DNA of 24,848 bases. Source: a virus. The stretch covers positions 1 to 24,848 of IMG/VR virus record IMGVR_UViG_3300037584_000261; one strand, 5' to 3'. This document shows positions 689-24,802 of this stretch, piece after piece (position 1 is the first letter of the stretch; every line of letters begins with the position of its first letter). Below the pieces are notes generated by a model. That model saw nothing but the letters and a program-made list of their open reading frames with translations. It was not told the DNA's origin and made no database searches. The position numbers and the translations under genes were made by a program.

Positions 689-1486
689 TTATTTTAACAT
701 TTCGTCTATAAACATATAGAAACCTTTTTGATGAGTTCTAACATCATCAGAACTGTTTGGGTTTAAAGAAGTACCAGGTCTATTACCAGAACCACTTTTA
801 CTTCTATAACCATATTCAATCGTATGTGTTCCTGCGTCTAAATCGGTTCTGTCAAATCTTTTGTGTGCGTGATGTGTATTTTGTTGTCCATCATCATTAT
901 GTCCCATACCCCAAAAAGCACTACTGTCATTATTTTCGTGGTCAGCATTTGCAGTAGTTATATCAAGATAAATACCAGAATAATCTGAAGAATTCTGATA
1001 ATGTACTGCCATCCATGTCACATCAATAGCTGATGTTGAGTTGTCATGTACTTTTACAAAGTTTGTTGTAAATATTGCACCTGTATTTGATGAGTCAGAA
1101 TAAGCATATCTAGTATTATTAAAGTAAACTGTTCTTTTAACTAATGGAGTTGATACACTTCCCCAAACTGGGTTAGCACCAGAACCTTGTGTTTTTAAGA
1201 ATTGTCCACTTGTTCCAGCTGCTAGTCTTTGTAATCCACTTCCATCACGATAAAGTATATCGCCTTGTGTCGTTAATGTAGTTGTTAAGTCTGTTCCATT
1301 AGTACCAGCAGATGACATTTGTTGCCAATATGCTGATGCTGATGCTGGATTTTGATTTGATCCAGCTTGTATAGAAATGTAACTTGATCCAGAATGGCTC
1401 ACTACATCATCTACTGCATAAGTAGTAGAATTAGACCATGGGCCTTTCCAATTAAATTTAATATTGCCGACCGAAATTGTTGCCAT
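689..1486 (-). CDS. Secondary tail fibre / receptor-binding protein with CBM5/12-like domain
   Basis: This 265-residue protein has an N-terminal module at residues about 10-58 with the pattern W-x3-TTYAVDDVVSHSGSSYIS and a closing YWQQM. This is the aromatic framework of CBM5/12 (chitin-binding type 3) carbohydrate-binding modules, which are common on phage tips. Next comes a linker at about 65-110 with the marine-phage tail motif GDILYRDGSGLQRL. The C-terminal region from about 115 is beta-rich and includes a histidine-rich stretch (NTHHAHKRF). It lies just after the main tail fibre gene, in the same order of transcription, with an AGAAAGGA site upstream. The likely role is glycan recognition at the tip or side of the fibre. 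The target glycan cannot be read from sequence. Confidence 0.75.
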   Translation of the reverse strand: MATISVGNIKFNWKGPWSNSTTYAVDDVVSHSGSSYISIQAGSNQNPASASAYWQQMSSAGTNGTDLTTTLTTQGDILYRDGSGLQRLAAGTSGQFLKTQGSGANPVWGSVSTPLVKRTVYFNNTRYAYSDSSNTGAIFTTNFVKVHDNSTSAIDVTWMAVHYQNSSDYSGIYLDITTANADHENNDSSAFWGMGHNDDGQQNTHHAHKRFDRTDLDAGTHTIEYGYRSKSGSGNRPGTSLNPNSSDDVRTHQKGFYMFIDEMLK

Positions 1487-1556: not shown

Positions 1557-3302
1557 TTATACAGTAGCTATTAACCTTCCATTATTTATACTAAATGTAA
1601 ATCCAGTTGATGCAAATATTACATCATCAAAACTATCATAAGTAGCAGCATCAATATTATCATCTCCTCCATTTGTTGTTACAACTTGTAAAGTGTTTGG
1701 TCTTGGAACTGGTGTATTTGCTTGGCCACCCATTCCAGAGTGAGATGAACAATAATAGTATAAAGTCGGAGCTCCAGTCGCTACTACTATTGTAACCTGG
1801 GTAGATGAGTTATGAGTAACCCCAGTTGTATATTCACTTCCAGAATTATGAGAACCATCTGATGTTGTAGAAAATTTAAAAGGATGGCCAGATGGGTAAG
1901 TAAATATATAAGTGTTACCCTCTAATAATTCTAAAGTATCTTGTTGAACTCCATCTATAAAATATTTATTTGAACCACCTACAGATACTACTGTAACTGT
2001 TCTGTTAATAGTTGAACCAGTAAATGATTTTACAAATCCATAAACCTCTGCACTTGATGTATTACTAAATGATAAATTTCCAGAGCCATCTGTAGTGATT
2101 GCTTGTCCAGCTGTTCCATCAGAGGTAGGATAACTAAGCCCATCTATAATTACTTTTCCAGAGCCATTTGGTGTAATAGGAATATTTCCATTAGAAACAG
2201 AAACAATACTATTGCCATTGACATCTAAATTACCTCCAAGTTGAGGAGTAACATCTCCTACAATATCTGTAAGTCCAGCTTGTATAGAGGCCCAAGAGGT
2301 TCCATTATAAAATTTTACAGCATTATCAGTAGAGTTATAAAATAAATCTCCTTCATCTAAACTTGATGTCGGATCGCTTGATCCTACTCTGTATCTTTCA
2401 GCAAAGCTATTTACACCAGATAAATTATTTGCAACAGTTGTAACATTAGCTTTTACAGCCTCAATGGCATTTAGATCTGATACAAAATCAGTAGTTGCTA
2501 ATTGGTTTAAATCACTAACTATATCTGATGTAGCTAAAATATTTAGATCTTCTACTATTGCAGTAGTAGCTAGTGTGTTTAAATCAGAAACAAAATCAGA
2601 TGTAATTAAACTTGAAACTGCTGCTACAGAATTAATGTTAGAAATGTTTGAGGCTACTGTTCCTATATTAGTGTTTGCAGCAGCTACAACACCTATATCA
2701 GTTGCATCAGCAGCTACAGCAGTAATATTAGAACTTATCCCAGCAAGTGTTGTTAAATCAGTAGTGATAGCAGCTAGTGTATCAATAGAGGTAGTATCTG
2801 GTCCAAGTTCTAAAGCTGTACCAGCTGAGTTGTATCTAATTACTTTTCCAGAGTTTGCAGTCGTTGTACTATAAGGAAACTCTAAAGGACCAGAGGTACC
2901 AGATCCAGTTACAGTCCTTGGAGTAGTAACTTTTAATTGTATAGATCTGTCTGTAATTTCTTTAAGTTGTTGTTGTCTAATTAATACATTATCAAATTCT
3001 GTTTCTAGTGTAGCTGGATTGTTTGCTTGTCCAGTTTGAAATACAGTAGTTCTTGATAATGGCTGATCACCAATGATAGTAATTATTTCACCAGCTGTAG
3101 TTGCTGATCCAAAGGTTACAGTTCCAGTACCATCACCATTTAAAGATACACTATAATGGGTTGTTTCTGTTTTTAAAGTATCATCAATATAAACTTGTAG
3201 TTCAGATGATGCGTTTACTTGAAAACTAAAATTAAACGCAGTCTGTCCAGTAGATGTATATTGTATCCTTCTATCTACAGCATTTATATTAAAAGTTGCC
3301 AT
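1557..3302 (-). CDS. Tail fibre with T7 gp17-like N-terminus and cupredoxin-like domain
   Basis: This 581-residue protein opens with the T7 gp17-type fibre attachment domain (about residues 5-125), including a VDRRIQYTSTGQTAFNFSF-type start and a FDNVLIRQQQLKEITDRSIQL helix. Residues about 170-295 hold short repeats, among them four units of the DxVxDLNxLAT type between 235 and 280, a likely trimeric shaft. A marine-phage module follows at about 303-340 (RYRVGSSDPTSSLDEGDLFY). Residues about 445-532 look like a cupredoxin: H473 in SGHPFKF, then C518, H521 and M524 in YYYCSSHSGMGG, with C518 the only cysteine in the protein. The gene abuts the large internal protein gene (TAG then ATG). The N-terminus should anchor it to the tail and the distal part contact the host. 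Copper binding is inferred. Confidence 0.9.
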   Translation of the reverse strand: MATFNINAVDRRIQYTSTGQTAFNFSFQVNASSELQVYIDDTLKTETTHYSVSLNGDGTGTVTFGSATTAGEIITIIGDQPLSRTTVFQTGQANNPATLETEFDNVLIRQQQLKEITDRSIQLKVTTPRTVTGSGTSGPLEFPYSTTTANSGKVIRYNSAGTALELGPDTTSIDTLAAITTDLTTLAGISSNITAVAADATDIGVVAAANTNIGTVASNISNINSVAAVSSLITSDFVSDLNTLATTAIVEDLNILATSDIVSDLNQLATTDFVSDLNAIEAVKANVTTVANNLSGVNSFAERYRVGSSDPTSSLDEGDLFYNSTDNAVKFYNGTSWASIQAGLTDIVGDVTPQLGGNLDVNGNSIVSVSNGNIPITPNGSGKVIIDGLSYPTSDGTAGQAITTDGSGNLSFSNTSSAEVYGFVKSFTGSTINRTVTVVSVGGSNKYFIDGVQQDTLELLEGNTYIFTYPSGHPFKFSTTSDGSHNSGSEYTTGVTHNSSTQVTIVVATGAPTLYYYCSSHSGMGGQANTPVPRPNTLQVVTTNGGDDNIDAATYDSFDDVIFASTGFTFSINNGRLIATV

Positions 3303-19165: not shown

Positions 19166-20685
19166 GCAAATATATCAAACTCTGTACTGGCAACTGATTG
19201 CCTAAACTTATTATTAGTTCCTCTTGTTAATCTTTTATGCTCACCACCTCCAAGCAGTAAGTACATAAACGCATCACCAACATGCGAATGTTCATTCTTG
19301 TTTGGAGCATCCTTATATCTTTCACCACCAGATATTTGTACTCGTTTAAAATGATAGCCACCAGATAATGCCTTCCTTAATCTTTGACATCTCTTATCTA
19401 CAAGTAATCCTGGTTTACCTTCTATCAATCTATTCATAGGCATAGCTCCAGCCTCTCGTCTTACTCTAAAATCATTAGATGCAGTTGGTCTAGCAGTCAA
19501 TCCTATAGATCTTAAATGATCAAAAGCTGTAACCTCATAGATCTCATCTCTCTTCATACCAGCTGGATCTCCATGGACTAGAACCTCAAACTTAGGAAAC
19601 TTACTAGCCAGTTCTGTTTTTAACATTTCACCAAATCTTTCTAATCCCATATCAAAGGTAACTAACTCATGTAAAATATTCCAGGTACCTTTTTTATTTC
19701 TTTGGCCAAAGATTGCAGCTGGAGTTAAACCAAAGTCCACACCCACCTGGATTGGTAAACTTATATCTGGTTCTAAATAATCTGCTGCCATTAATGTATC
19801 ATCATACTCAGATAAAACTGGTTTACCTTCTTGCACATAAGTATATAGGCCTTGAGCATAACATCTTATCCAATCTAAATTTTTTCCGAGTAGTGTTTGT
19901 TCATAGTAACCAGTCGGTAAATTTTTTTTATTTTCAGCTTGAGGGTTTGTCATCCACCATTTCTTTGCTGACATAACAAAACCATTAGCCTCTGGATTTT
20001 CTGGTAAATCTTCTTTGGTATATTCTAATACTGCACCAGGCTGCTTATAAAACTTCCAGGCATATTTACCTTTCATCTTTTCTTTCTCTGCTAATCTGTA
20101 CCACCAATGATCATCATCCATTGGGTTAGTATCCATGATGATACCTCTCCAGGGTTTGGCCCCTCCATCTGATAATGTAGGATACCTTCCAACTCTATGT
20201 GTTAATCCATCTATAACAGCCTTTGGTAATTCTCTAGCCTCATTCACCCAGGCTCCAGTCAATTCCATAGACAAAAGTTTTCTAACATCTTTTGGTTGGT
20301 CCAATGCTAAGAAGATAACTTCACAATCTATACCTGGAGCTCCATCCCTTGATGGTAATTTTATATGATGTGTCAATGGAGGGCTCCATCTAAATGGACC
20401 CCAAATGTTTTCTGGAAATAACTCTTGCCAAGTTTTAATAGTAGTTGTCCTAAGCTCTGGATAAGAATTACGAACTACAACAAACCTTGAATACTTGATC
20501 CCATCCTTAGGACTGGCCACTTGCTGTACTGCTTTCAACATTATCTCAGCTGCACATGCGTATGATTTGCCAGATCCAACTGGCCCCATCAATCCTCTTA
20601 CAAATGATTTGTCTTGTAGAAATTTCCAAACTGTTTGTGATGTAGAAAAGTCTAGCTTTAAATTTGTTATTGCATCAGACACCAC
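19162..20685 (-). CDS. terL: Terminase large subunit (DNA packaging motor)
   Basis: A 507-residue terminase with both working domains. The ATPase has Walker A at residues 34-41 (GPVGSGKS), adenine-side residues before it, a Walker B-type GAWVNEAREL at 144-153, and the coupling segment IIMDTNPMDDDHWW at about 182-195. The nuclease has the three expected acidic positions D317 (GVDFG), D373 (HGDPAG) and D471 (HSHVGDAF). It pumps and cuts DNA at the portal. The start is GTG at 20685, with GAGGG five bases upstream, inside the end of the PP-loop gene; a second GTG follows directly at 20682. The gene lies upstream of the portal gene, unlike T7, where it follows the fibre gene. Confidence 0.95.
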   Translation of the reverse strand: MVSDAITNLKLDFSTSQTVWKFLQDKSFVRGLMGPVGSGKSYACAAEIMLKAVQQVASPKDGIKYSRFVVVRNSYPELRTTTIKTWQELFPENIWGPFRWSPPLTHHIKLPSRDGAPGIDCEVIFLALDQPKDVRKLLSMELTGAWVNEARELPKAVIDGLTHRVGRYPTLSDGGAKPWRGIIMDTNPMDDDHWWYRLAEKEKMKGKYAWKFYKQPGAVLEYTKEDLPENPEANGFVMSAKKWWMTNPQAENKKNLPTGYYEQTLLGKNLDWIRCYAQGLYTYVQEGKPVLSEYDDTLMAADYLEPDISLPIQVGVDFGLTPAAIFGQRNKKGTWNILHELVTFDMGLERFGEMLKTELASKFPKFEVLVHGDPAGMKRDEIYEVTAFDHLRSIGLTARPTASNDFRVRREAGAMPMNRLIEGKPGLLVDKRCQRLRKALSGGYHFKRVQISGGERYKDAPNKNEHSHVGDAFMYLLLGGGEHKRLTRGTNNKFRQSVASTEFDIFA

Positions 20686-21505
20686 ACATACCCTCGCAAT
20701 TATCTAATTGTCCAAAATCTTCATGGAATAATTCTGGTTGTCCTTTTTCTGCATTGGTTCTTAAATCTGCCTCATTAAGTGGTACACAATCTTTATGAAC
20801 ATAAACTTTATCATCAGTCTTAGTTCCAGTTCTTATTTTTTTGTCAAACTCAACAGCTTGTTTCCATTCATTAGGAAAATTATTTTTTAATGCTTTCCAT
20901 TCTGTATTTGTTTTATAAGGACAATATATACATGCAGACCTTGGTAGATTTTTATCATAATGTTTTGCAAACCAATCTTGACAATCTTTGCGTCTAATTT
21001 TTTTATCTATCAAAGGATAAACATTTTCAATCCATTTAATTTGATTTGTTTTCATTCTAATTATTTCATCAAATGATATACCCATAAGTAATTGTACATT
21101 AGTACCTTGCTTTCTTTTTTCTCCTTTTTGCAAACCTAACAACTCTCTAATCTTTTTATTTACTGGCCTTATTTTGTAGTTACTCGTACATTGTCTGCGT
21201 AATAAACCTTTTTTTCCAGTTTCATTATTTTTAGTAAAGAGTGGCACTTCAACAAAATTCCATCTGCCTTTACCTTCTGCATTGTTAATACTATCTTGAG
21301 TAAGATCTCCACCAGATACTTTGTAAATAGGATATGATAATTGTTTTTCTAACCAGGTAAGATGGTCATAAACCTCTTTAGGTTCTGCCATAGTATCAGC
21401 AAAGATAGCAGCATCTACCATTGGCACCTCTCCTTTTTCAATCATTAATGCAAGAGTAGAACTTTGAACTCCAGCTCCTAAAGATAATATTCTAAGATCA
21501 CTCAT
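20675..21505 (-). CDS. PP-loop sulfurtransferase / PAPS-reductase-family protein
   Basis: About 276 residues from ATG 21505 (ATGA overlap); another in-frame ATG at 21517 would add four. The PP-loop reads SLGAGVQSST near the N-terminus, binding ATP for adenylation. Counted from the 21517 start, further family marks are a CTSNYKIRP element at 110-118, GISFDEIIRMK at 147-156, DCQDWF at 178-183, a CIYCPYK pair at 196-202 and a terminal CEGMCGV (C274, C278). The cysteines suggest an iron-sulfur cluster or persulfide chemistry. It lacks the ECGLH tail of assimilatory CysH, so sulfate reduction is unlikely; nucleic-acid or cofactor thiolation is a better guess. The DNA is markedly AT-rich beside the terminase gene, suggesting later arrival. 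Confidence 0.8.
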   Translation of the reverse strand: MSDLRILSLGAGVQSSTLALMIEKGEVPMVDAAIFADTMAEPKEVYDHLTWLEKQLSYPIYKVSGGDLTQDSINNAEGKGRWNFVEVPLFTKNNETGKKGLLRRQCTSNYKIRPVNKKIRELLGLQKGEKRKQGTNVQLLMGISFDEIIRMKTNQIKWIENVYPLIDKKIRRKDCQDWFAKHYDKNLPRSACIYCPYKTNTEWKALKNNFPNEWKQAVEFDKKIRTGTKTDDKVYVHKDCVPLNEADLRTNAEKGQPELFHEDFGQLDNCEGMCGV

Positions 21506-21711
21506 TCGCAAATACATCCATATAGATCACCACTACCATCATTCATGACATGTCTATTTATGGGAGCATCATGATAGGTTGTCAATTTTAATCTTATTAT
21601 ATCGCAAAACTCAAAGCAATCTACTGCTGTTAATAATGTAATACTTTGTAACATTTCTTGGGTAACTACTACTAAACTATATATACCATCACTTAAAATA
21701 ATTAAACTCAT
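21502..21711 (-). CDS. 69-residue protein of unknown function
   Basis: The ATG at 21711 overlaps the stop of the 49-residue basic gene by ATGA and has an AGAGGTGG ribosome-binding site close upstream. The first half is hydrophobic with strand-like repeats (MSLIILSDGIYSLVVVTQEM), the middle is FEFCDIIRLKL, and the end contains DGSGDLYGCICE with two cysteines. Four cysteines in total (33, 36, 66 and 68 approximately) could bind a metal, but the spacing matches no motif I recognise. It overlaps the PP-loop gene start and may work with it, since both are cysteine-rich and coupled. That link is speculative. Confidence 0.55.
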   Translation of the reverse strand: MSLIILSDGIYSLVVVTQEMLQSITLLTAVDCFEFCDIIRLKLTTYHDAPINRHVMNDGSGDLYGCICE

Positions 21712-22891: not shown

Positions 22892-23737
22892 TTACCTAGG
22901 CATCTTCATTTTCCTGGATAGTTTCTTTACCATATCCTGGACCAGTTCCTTATTGTTATTAGGCTTGTCTTTCTTAACAAATACATCCTTATAAAAGATT
23001 ATTCTTTTGGGGCAGTCCTTCCTATTATTCCTTCTCCAGATAAGTATCTCCCTAATTCTAGCAGCAGCCCTGGCCTCGGTAAGTCCATTCTGTACCCATT
23101 CAGAAACCATATTCTCATCATCAATACTATATTGAACCAGAGTTCCGAAAATCTCTTCGGTTATTCTTACAAACCTATTTAATATGTTTCTGACTATAGG
23201 GTATATATGATTGTTCTTTGGGTTGTTATGCATGTACTCTGACTGCATATCTGGATATGTATTGGGAACCATATTAGAACTATTCTTATCTACTGACTTA
23301 TGTACTCTAGGTGCATAATTCTTTTTACCCCCACCTTTAGGACCTATGTGTATTTCTGGTTTATCTTCATAGGATCTGTCCTTATCTGGTACCATAGCTA
23401 AAGCATCCTCTTCCTTAATCTTAGGATCAAACACCATAAAGTATTTGTTACCTTTGAGGCCAGGATGTTTCTTAGCATAGCGAATATAATCCCACTCAAT
23501 AAGTTTCTTAATATGTCTTGAAACAGTTGATTGGGTTATGTGCAAGTTCCTGGCTATAGTTAATTGGTTCGGCCAACAGACACCTTGCCTGGATGTGTAG
23601 TTACCAAGTGCTGCAAGGATCATGAAGGTTCTTGGATAAGTCTTGAACCTTTTATCTATTACAGCTCTTTGAGGCAGTACACAAAAGTGGCCAGGTGTTC
23701 TGCCTTTACCATAATCAGCTTTCTTTTTATCACTCAT
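22892..23737 (-). CDS. Winged-helix replication / regulatory protein
   Basis: A 281-residue protein with a winged helix-turn-helix at about residues 33-105. The core reads TFMILAALGNYT, then CWPNQLTIARNLHITQSTVS, then RHIKKLIEWDYIRYAKK. This resembles the N-terminal domain of phage and plasmid replication proteins (helix-turn-helix 36/RepA type). The middle (about 110-165) is polar and probably flexible. The C-terminal part (about 175-281) is helical, with RIREILIWRRNNRKDCPKRI, and may contact a helicase or primase. It starts in an ATGA overlap with the methyltransferase gene and is the last gene before the noncoding control region, so initiation of phage replication or transcription control is likely. 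Confidence 0.7.
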   Translation of the reverse strand: MSDKKKADYGKGRTPGHFCVLPQRAVIDKRFKTYPRTFMILAALGNYTSRQGVCWPNQLTIARNLHITQSTVSRHIKKLIEWDYIRYAKKHPGLKGNKYFMVFDPKIKEEDALAMVPDKDRSYEDKPEIHIGPKGGGKKNYAPRVHKSVDKNSSNMVPNTYPDMQSEYMHNNPKNNHIYPIVRNILNRFVRITEEIFGTLVQYSIDDENMVSEWVQNGLTEARAAARIREILIWRRNNRKDCPKRIIFYKDVFVKKDKPNNNKELVQDMVKKLSRKMKMPR

Positions 23738-24273
23738 ATTTCGTTACCCCAAACATCCCAGCCTGGAGTTTTTTGTCTTGCAAATAATTCTATTCTTGGA
23801 AGATCACCACAAAGCTCAACAATTCTATCTCTAACACAATCTGGTTTTCTTGAATGTTCTCTTAAATTATCAATAACAAGTTGTTTTACTTTTTTAGAAT
23901 GTCTTTTAAATTTACCTTTTCTACCTATCAAACAAATTTCACAATTTGAATTAGTGTAAAAACCTAAACCAGAATAAAAAGATCCTTTCTTATTTGTTTT
24001 TACCCATGTGAAAGCTACAGTTTTATAAACAAACTGCCATGATTTTAAAACCTCTATTCCTTCAATTAAATTAGGATAAGTAACCCAAAGAAACAAAATA
24101 CAATTATCATCAGATATTTGATTTATAGGTAATTGTTTTATTTGATTTAAAGATAAAGTTTTATAATGAGCTGATACATCACCATGAGATTTACCTTTAC
24201 CTTGAAAATTATTATAAGTCCAAGGTGGATCAGCATAAATAATCTGATACTTTTTATTTGGTAGATTATTCAT
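23734..24273 (-). CDS. MT-A70-family adenine N6-methyltransferase
   Basis: A 179-residue DNA (or RNA) adenine methyltransferase of the MT-A70 type. The catalytic DPPW is at residues 15-18 (IIYADPPWTY). Further marks are CILFLWVTYP at about 58-67, the AdoMet-binding-region motifs around TNSNCEICLIGRKGK (107-121) and a closing REHSRKPDCV plus LPRIELFARQKTPGWDVWGNE. All conserved parts are present, so it is probably active and may protect phage DNA from restriction or mark it. A hand count of 480 bases inside it gives about 27% G+C, against about 37% in the next gene, suggesting separate acquisition. Overlaps on both sides (8 and 4 bases) keep it in the operon. Confidence 0.88.
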   Translation of the reverse strand: MNNLPNKKYQIIYADPPWTYNNFQGKGKSHGDVSAHYKTLSLNQIKQLPINQISDDNCILFLWVTYPNLIEGIEVLKSWQFVYKTVAFTWVKTNKKGSFYSGLGFYTNSNCEICLIGRKGKFKRHSKKVKQLVIDNLREHSRKPDCVRDRIVELCGDLPRIELFARQKTPGWDVWGNEI

Positions 24274-24802
24274 TATCTGGTTGGGCCTCTGACTTTAGCT
24301 TTGCCTCTAGCTTAGCAAAATCAGACCACAATTCTATTCCACTTTCTTTTTTAATACTCCAGCAATTCTTTTTATCTCTCTTCAATCTTACATGGTGAAT
24401 GACAGTTGTATGATCTCTGTTACCACATGCTCGGCCAATCGCTGGTTGAGATGAATGAGTAAGCTCGTTGCATAAGTTGATATATACAGATCTAACTCTT
24501 ACAAGATCAGCATGTCTTTTATCAGACTTAATATCAGTAGGACCTACCTCAAAGTAATCGCAGACAGCCTCAAGTATATCAGAGATCCATACTCTCTTAG
24601 CTCTCTCTTCTGGTTTAGGTCTATACTTATCTCTTCTCTTCAATACTCGGAGCTCATCCATTAACTTATCTATCTTGCTCTCCAGGTAGTCTATTCTTTT
24701 TTTAATACCATCATCTTTAGATTGGACAATAGGTACAGATCTTTGTTGTACATATTCAAAACCAGGTGGTGGTTTGATTACATTATTTGGTATCTTTGTC
24801 AT
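24266..24802 (-). CDS. DnaA domain IV-like DNA-binding protein
   Basis: A 178-residue protein with a coiled coil at about 31-57 (KKRIDYLESKIDKLMDELRV). A DnaA C-terminal DNA-binding domain follows at about 70-146. The latter has ILEAVCDYFEVGPTDIKSDK, then RVRSVYINLCNELT, then the signature GNRDHTTVIHH (127-137), equivalent to the bacterial GGRDHTTVLHA that reads DnaA boxes. The AAA+ ATPase and the N-terminal DnaB-binding domain of DnaA are missing. The protein might dimerise by the coiled coil and bind host or phage DnaA boxes, to start replication or to block host initiation. The ATG at 24802 has GAGG six bases upstream. The same frame stays open to the window edge, so a longer start cannot be excluded. 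Confidence 0.82.
   Translation of the reverse strand: MTKIPNNVIKPPPGFEYVQQRSVPIVQSKDDGIKKRIDYLESKIDKLMDELRVLKRRDKYRPKPEERAKRVWISDILEAVCDYFEVGPTDIKSDKRHADLVRVRSVYINLCNELTHSSQPAIGRACGNRDHTTVIHHVRLKRDKKNCWSIKKESGIELWSDFAKLEAKLKSEAQPDNE

Follow-up and report, generated by a model that had tools for sequence, protein, structure and literature searches.

A cupredoxin domain with a predicted type 1 copper site recurs in the tail proteins of marine phages

Introduction

Why would the tail fibre of a marine phage carry a domain that resembles a blue copper protein? The question is raised by a fibre gene in the window, which is the whole stretch of DNA analysed here, a 24.8-kb virus fragment of 24,848 nucleotides (IMG/VR record IMGVR_UViG_3300037584_000261). 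Near the C-terminus of the encoded fibre are a histidine, a cysteine, a second histidine and a methionine, arranged as in the copper site of amicyanin. We asked whether the region has the fold that such a site needs, whether the four residues behave as a unit among relatives, how far the domain has spread and what a copper site might do on a phage tail.

Results

The gene order of the window is that of a T7-like marine podovirus, and almost every gene is on the minus strand. The capsid protein is most similar to that of Methylophilales phage MEP301 (64%). Its other matches include Vibrio and Pelagibacter phages, and because the matches are spread in this way the host is uncertain. Relatives of the 581-aa fibre (Table 1) are annotated as tail fiber proteins in HTVC028P and in the uncultured phage MedDCM-OCT-S30-C28. 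The gene downstream of the fibre gene encodes a tail protein with a CBM_5_12-like domain. It is context, outside the cupredoxin module, and with such a carbohydrate-binding neighbour the fibre region may bear two different surface-binding modules. Elsewhere in the window, also on the minus strand, genes at 23734-24273 and 24266-24802 encode an MT-A70 type adenine methyltransferase (E 7e-32) and, overlapping by a few bases, a protein bearing a DnaA DNA-binding domain (E 3e-22). A 280-aa protein (20675-21517, minus strand) resembles enzymes of the PAPS-reductase or ATP-pyrophosphatase type, judging by its SLGAGVQSST motif; it had no Pfam match above the cut-off.

Table 1. Features of the fibre gene and of its neighbour, by position in the window
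Feature	Position	Strand	Basis
Tail fibre gene, 581 aa	1557..3302	minus	Open frame; PHROG 21412 'tail fiber protein' at residues 285-426, E 4e-30
Shared fibre body, residues 1-415	2058..3302	minus	89% identity over 374 aligned residues to the domain-less fibre of locus L198
Left flank of insert, SSAEVYGF, residues 416-423	2034..2057	minus	Directly before the tip, with no domain in between, in L054, L214, L216 and L218
Cupredoxin domain (predicted), residues 425-532	1707..2030	minus	AlphaFold2 pLDDT 89.8, pTM 0.81; best Foldseek matches rusticyanin and other cupredoxins, E 4.6e-5
Candidate ligand H473	1884..1886	minus	Loop between predicted strands 3 and 4 (DSSP of model); codon checked
Candidate ligand C518	1749..1751	minus	End of penultimate predicted strand
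Candidate ligand H521	1740..1742	minus	C-terminal ligand loop
Candidate ligand M524	1731..1733	minus	C-terminal ligand loop
C-terminal beta tip, LQVVTTNGG...LIATV, residues 538-581	1560..1691	minus	Conserved with and without the domain
Neighbouring tail protein, 265 aa, CBM_5_12-like domain	689..1486	minus	Pfam E 2e-5, just under cut-off; PHROG tail fiber proteins

The preliminary description of this DNA had proposed H473, C518, H521 and M524 as the ligands, with C518 as the only cysteine in 581 residues and an amicyanin-type C-x2-H-x2-M spacing. All three points hold: the codons were located on the minus strand, a residue count confirmed the single cysteine, and the order His, Cys, His, Met with the spacing C518-x2-H521-x2-M524 is that of the amicyanin loop (CTPHPFM, from the title of PDB entry 2vmj). 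M524 is the only methionine in the fibre besides M1. A search for H-x(35-75)-C-x2-H-x2-M gives a single occurrence in the fibre, none in 20,000 shuffles of the fibre sequence and none in 1,598 unrelated open reading frames of at least 100 aa.

An AlphaFold2 model of the domain, built from an alignment of 46 relatives, is an eight-strand beta-sandwich (confidence values in Table 1). The loop that joins strands 3 and 4 contains H473, C518 is at the end of the penultimate strand, and the loop preceding the last strand contains both H521 and M524. In the model this placement is the ligand layout of cupredoxins, as far as geometry can be read from strand order. Cupredoxins lead the Foldseek matches among solved structures (probability 1.00), with rusticyanin (PDB 1gy2, 1rcy) best at E 4.6e-5 to 1e-3 over many entries, followed by nitrite reductase, a pseudoazurin with an engineered amicyanin loop, AcoP, and then multicopper oxidases and laccases; SO1698, labelled as an aspartic peptidase, is also in the list. 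TM-scores of the model against solved cupredoxins are moderate (0.5-0.6). A longer model (residues 365-581) again placed rusticyanin first, with weaker E-values; in it the C-terminal tip of the fibre is beta structure of low confidence. Several short giant-virus 'beta-sandwich proteins' also resemble the domain by predicted fold (BFVD A0A481Z7Q7 and A0A481Z6J5 from Pithovirus LCPAC, A0A481YVH3 from Marseillevirus LCMAC201).

By sequence, the domain in the window did not on its own find a known cupredoxin. It matched no Pfam family, even at E 10, and did not reach the cut-off of PF00127, and phmmer and profile searches against the sequences of solved structures gave weak unrelated matches only. 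It does match PHROG 677, the cyanophage gp9-like connector (E 4e-12). More divergent phage copies are closer to cellular proteins. The second copies in Prochlorococcus phages MED4-213 and P-SSM2 match plastocyanin 1b3i (E 7e-4) and 'Cupredoxin 1' 4hcf (E 9e-4), and their remaining matches are mostly cupredoxins (rusticyanin, amicyanin, pseudoazurin, auracyanin). The P-SSM2 tail protein clears the Pfam Copper-bind cut-off (23.3 vs 21.2 bits). Global profile-profile alignment of the phage domain with 23 bacterial plastocyanin/pseudoazurin/amicyanin-type proteins brought the four ligands into register (P 9e-5). Local profile-profile alignment with cellular cupredoxins was weak (P 5e-4; reversed-profile control 0.24), and alignment with the azurin subgroup was not meaningful. 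Homology to known cupredoxins, as judged from these comparisons, is thus detectable only through divergent phage copies and profile-profile alignment. The copy in P-SSM5 (L194:3536-5233) weakly matches a plant At5g54830-like domain (PF25489, E 1e-3), and PF25489 may be an unrecognised cupredoxin relative.

We collected 139 distinct domain sequences from IMG/VR, from SAG and MAG contigs and from named phages. The ligand columns are present in 136 rows, the others being halves of copies split by insertion. The first His, the Cys and the second His are present in all 136 and the Met in 135 (one Glu), and conservation of the ligands extends to copies clustered at 40-60% identity. Directly after the first His, 138 of 143 phage copies have Pro, where the collected cellular cupredoxins mostly have Asn or another residue. 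The second shell of the site therefore differs between the two, and its electronic properties may differ as well.

Because ordinary searches favour copies that bear the motif, we looked for site-less copies in two ways, with the four ligand residues masked and with a site-less copy as the starting point. PSS2 and its relatives (D/A/T/M, A/A/T/M and Y/A/P/M at the ligand positions) are site-less, as are the majority of the baseplate-wedge copies from cyanophages that were examined (E/G/T/L, N/A/T/A, H/S/D/H, Q/A/S/L, L/G/I/V and others), and the second copy in S-RIM32 has lost all four ligands. Wedge-family copies in P-HM2, S-SSM6b, S-ShM2 and ACG-2014d have the complete set. Across the wedge family, Cys and second His are concordant in 15 of 15 copies (Fisher P 7e-4, before correction for kinship), while the first His persists alone in one copy and the Met alone in one. 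In a tree made after removal of the ligand columns, presence or absence of the site requires at least three changes, and Cys and second His were lost together, usually with the first His and the Met, in about three lineages. After loss, the positions accept E, K, D, N, L, Y, G, A, S and T. The second copy in S-CAM4 is intermediate: it retains the first His and Cys, its second His is displaced by an insertion, and its Met is replaced by Glu. A second copy in locus L144 that seemed site-less was rejected, since the masked profile had shifted a gap and the unmasked sequence reads H, C, H, M.

The four ligands thus tend to be present or absent together, with few exceptions, which is the behaviour that a metal site would show, and the wide variation at these positions in site-less copies indicates that packing alone does not require the ligand residues. 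Joint conservation and joint loss together are strong indirect evidence, at the level of sequence, that the four residues act as one metal site.

The surroundings of the domain differ among related loci. In the window the end of the fibre reads SSAEVYGF-[domain]-LQVVTTNGG...LIATV. In L214 the corresponding end, without the domain, reads SSAEVYGF-TMTDTNSDGVLD-SLQVTTTNGGQDNI...LIATI, and close versions are found in L216 and L218. The fibre of L054 has the domain near its opposite end instead, and the fibre of L198 that shares the body (Table 1), matching it over residues 1-414, is without the domain and ends in a different tip. With redundancy included, the domain is subterminal in 97 loci, internal in 63, N-terminal in 44 and at the extreme C-terminus in 12. 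The proteins that carry it belong to fibre, T7-like nozzle (for example, in L043), central hub J (L032) and gp9-like connector families. In S-TIM5 a copy is close to the portal gene, and in cyanophage wedges the domain is within a YHYH-domain protein. At least 590 related loci are present in IMG/VR, phage records include 102 matches to the window copy and 294 to the wedge copy, and the module is found in phages of both SAR11 and picocyanobacteria. From these comparisons, the domain is a mobile accessory insert of diverse marine phage tails.

Two arrangements in cyanophages are recorded here in their own right. In two baseplate wedges (L193:4262-7723 and L183:5307-8864) the cupredoxin copy apparently splits a YHYH domain (PF14240, of unknown function) into two halves, so that one possible metal domain appears to be nested in another. 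Cyanophage PSS2 gp080 (L230:3992-4327) is a 112-aa stand-alone site-less domain annotated as a baseplate wedge subunit.

These results bear on several other points of the preliminary description. The cupredoxin fold that it proposed is found in both models, the H, C, H and M that it singled out are conserved jointly, and the losses are joint; independent loss of the four residues had been named there as evidence against a site. Of the roles that it offered (a metal-stabilised fold, a sensor, a docking module), a stabilised fold as the sole role is made less likely by copies that retain the domain but are metal-free. The description of a cupredoxin domain on the fibre stands, although its reach was under-stated: the domain is a widespread mobile virion module rather than a feature of one odd fibre.

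Discussion

Based on its predicted fold and on the behaviour of its ligands, we consider it very probable that the domain is competent to form a type 1 copper site. Cys and Met ligands in a cupredoxin fold are a copper pattern, which favours copper over zinc or iron. Virions are assembled in the cytoplasm, which has little free copper; this counts against the explanation, and for that reason loading would probably follow lysis. We infer that the site is occupied by copper, that it is exposed and that it takes part in attachment; a role at the cell surface is deduced from the location on a fibre. We postulate that the fibre presents an inserted cupredoxin domain, with a His-Cys-His-Met type 1 site of amicyanin spacing, just before its C-terminal beta tip, that the site would take up copper once the virion meets lysate or seawater, and that the metal would hold the Cys-His-Met loop as a contact surface as the tail meets the host envelope. 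Such a function of the copper-site module in attachment, at the contact between virion and cell, may well be correct.

A somewhat doubtful but still credible alternative is that the metal only stabilises a decorative beta-sandwich. In this case copper, or another soft metal, would replace disulfides, which are incompatible with the cytoplasm, and the domain would be a marine counterpart of Ig-like decoration domains. The promiscuous placement of the domain in many unrelated tail proteins fits such a role, as does the single Cys in 35 of the 53 fibres that carry the domain, which leaves no disulfides, and the iron-filled fibre tips of T4 together with HxH motifs in marine phage fibres provide a precedent (PMC11705849). 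However, the wedge, PSS2 and S-RIM32 copies retain the sequence pattern of the domain without the site, so metal is not needed for the domain to persist, and the invariance of the ligands in fibres exceeds what stability alone would require. Because persistence of the domain does not depend on metal, as the site-less wedge copies demonstrate, we favour a contact function over pure stabilisation. It could also be argued that no metal is bound and that the four residues are retained for packing or through close kinship, since close relatives dominate the sample. We find this very improbable, given that the ligands are conserved among the clustered copies, that Cys and second His disappear together and that so many different residues are then accepted in their place.

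Two further explanations give the metal a more active part. Bound copper could be bait, by analogy with the Ferrojan horse proposed for iron, allowing the fibre to dock on host receptors for copper or metallophore uptake. The site adjoins the fibre tip, the same module is present in phages of SAR11 and of picocyanobacteria, and the iron analogue has been published (PMC11705849), but the module is also carried by nozzle, hub and wedge proteins, for which first contact with a receptor is not a requirement, and we regard this use as improbable. Least probable of all, in our judgement, is that the site responds to oxidation state, or passes electrons to or from proteins of the host envelope, and triggers a change in the tail. 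Cellular cupredoxins with the same ligand set are electron carriers, and the domain does occur in tail nozzle and hub proteins. In the window, however, there is no obvious gene for a redox partner, and the position after the first His is Pro where the collected cellular electron carriers often have Asn.

The module shares features with several known systems and differs from each. Like amicyanin, plastocyanin and pseudoazurin (PF00127, PF13473), it has a predicted beta-sandwich, a His in the loop that links strands 3 and 4, a Cys that ends the penultimate strand and, as in amicyanin, C-x2-H-x2-M. In contrast to these proteins, it is fused into virion tail proteins and has Pro for the usual Asn, and the copy in the window is not seen by Pfam. 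Rusticyanin is the best fold match. It differs from the phage domain in being a free, acid-stable electron carrier and in its longer spacing from Cys to His. Soluble periplasmic electron carriers are free secreted proteins of about 100 aa, whereas the phage domain is embedded in the 581-aa fibre. Ig-like phage decoration domains are mobile beta-sandwiches inserted into many structural proteins. They are without a metal site, whereas the site of the phage cupredoxin is kept or lost as a unit. The petE plastocyanin of cyanophages, listed among their metabolic genes (PMC10436341), is phage-encoded and of the same superfamily, but the tail domain is built into a tail protein, and we saw no sign that petE is a tail component. 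Borg cupredoxins likewise gave no sign of being tail components, and the viral nirK genes of one paper were set aside, since that NirK is a full two-motif reductase. Iron-binding fibre tips, known from T4 gp37 with its HxH motifs and proposed for marine phages (PMC11705849), also place metal on a tail fibre, but they have HxH iron sites along the trimer and not a cupredoxin domain.

We found no account in the open literature of a cupredoxin module on phage tails. Database entries for named relatives call them tail fibre, gp9 or hypothetical proteins, and automatic cupredoxin labels may already be attached to some of them elsewhere. The fold itself is known, but the literature that we searched does not describe a complete type 1 copper site that is part of virion tail proteins and passes as a cassette between phages of the dominant bacteria of the ocean.

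The recurrence of this module on the tails of ocean viruses suggests an undescribed role for copper in attachment or entry. Existing isolates, including Pelagibacter phage HTVC028P and cyanophages S-TIM5 and P-SSM2, are suited to direct tests, and the natural metal-free wedge copies are a ready-made control. We would go further only with considerable doubt, and speculate that marine phages from several lineages share a tail module loaded with copper, that adsorption or entry requires this metal, that infection of SAR11 and of picocyanobacteria could thus depend on copper, and that ocean virions could be a pool of strong copper ligands. If copper is bound, the module would link trace-metal chemistry to phage attachment and would be a copper counterpart to the proposals for iron on fibres.
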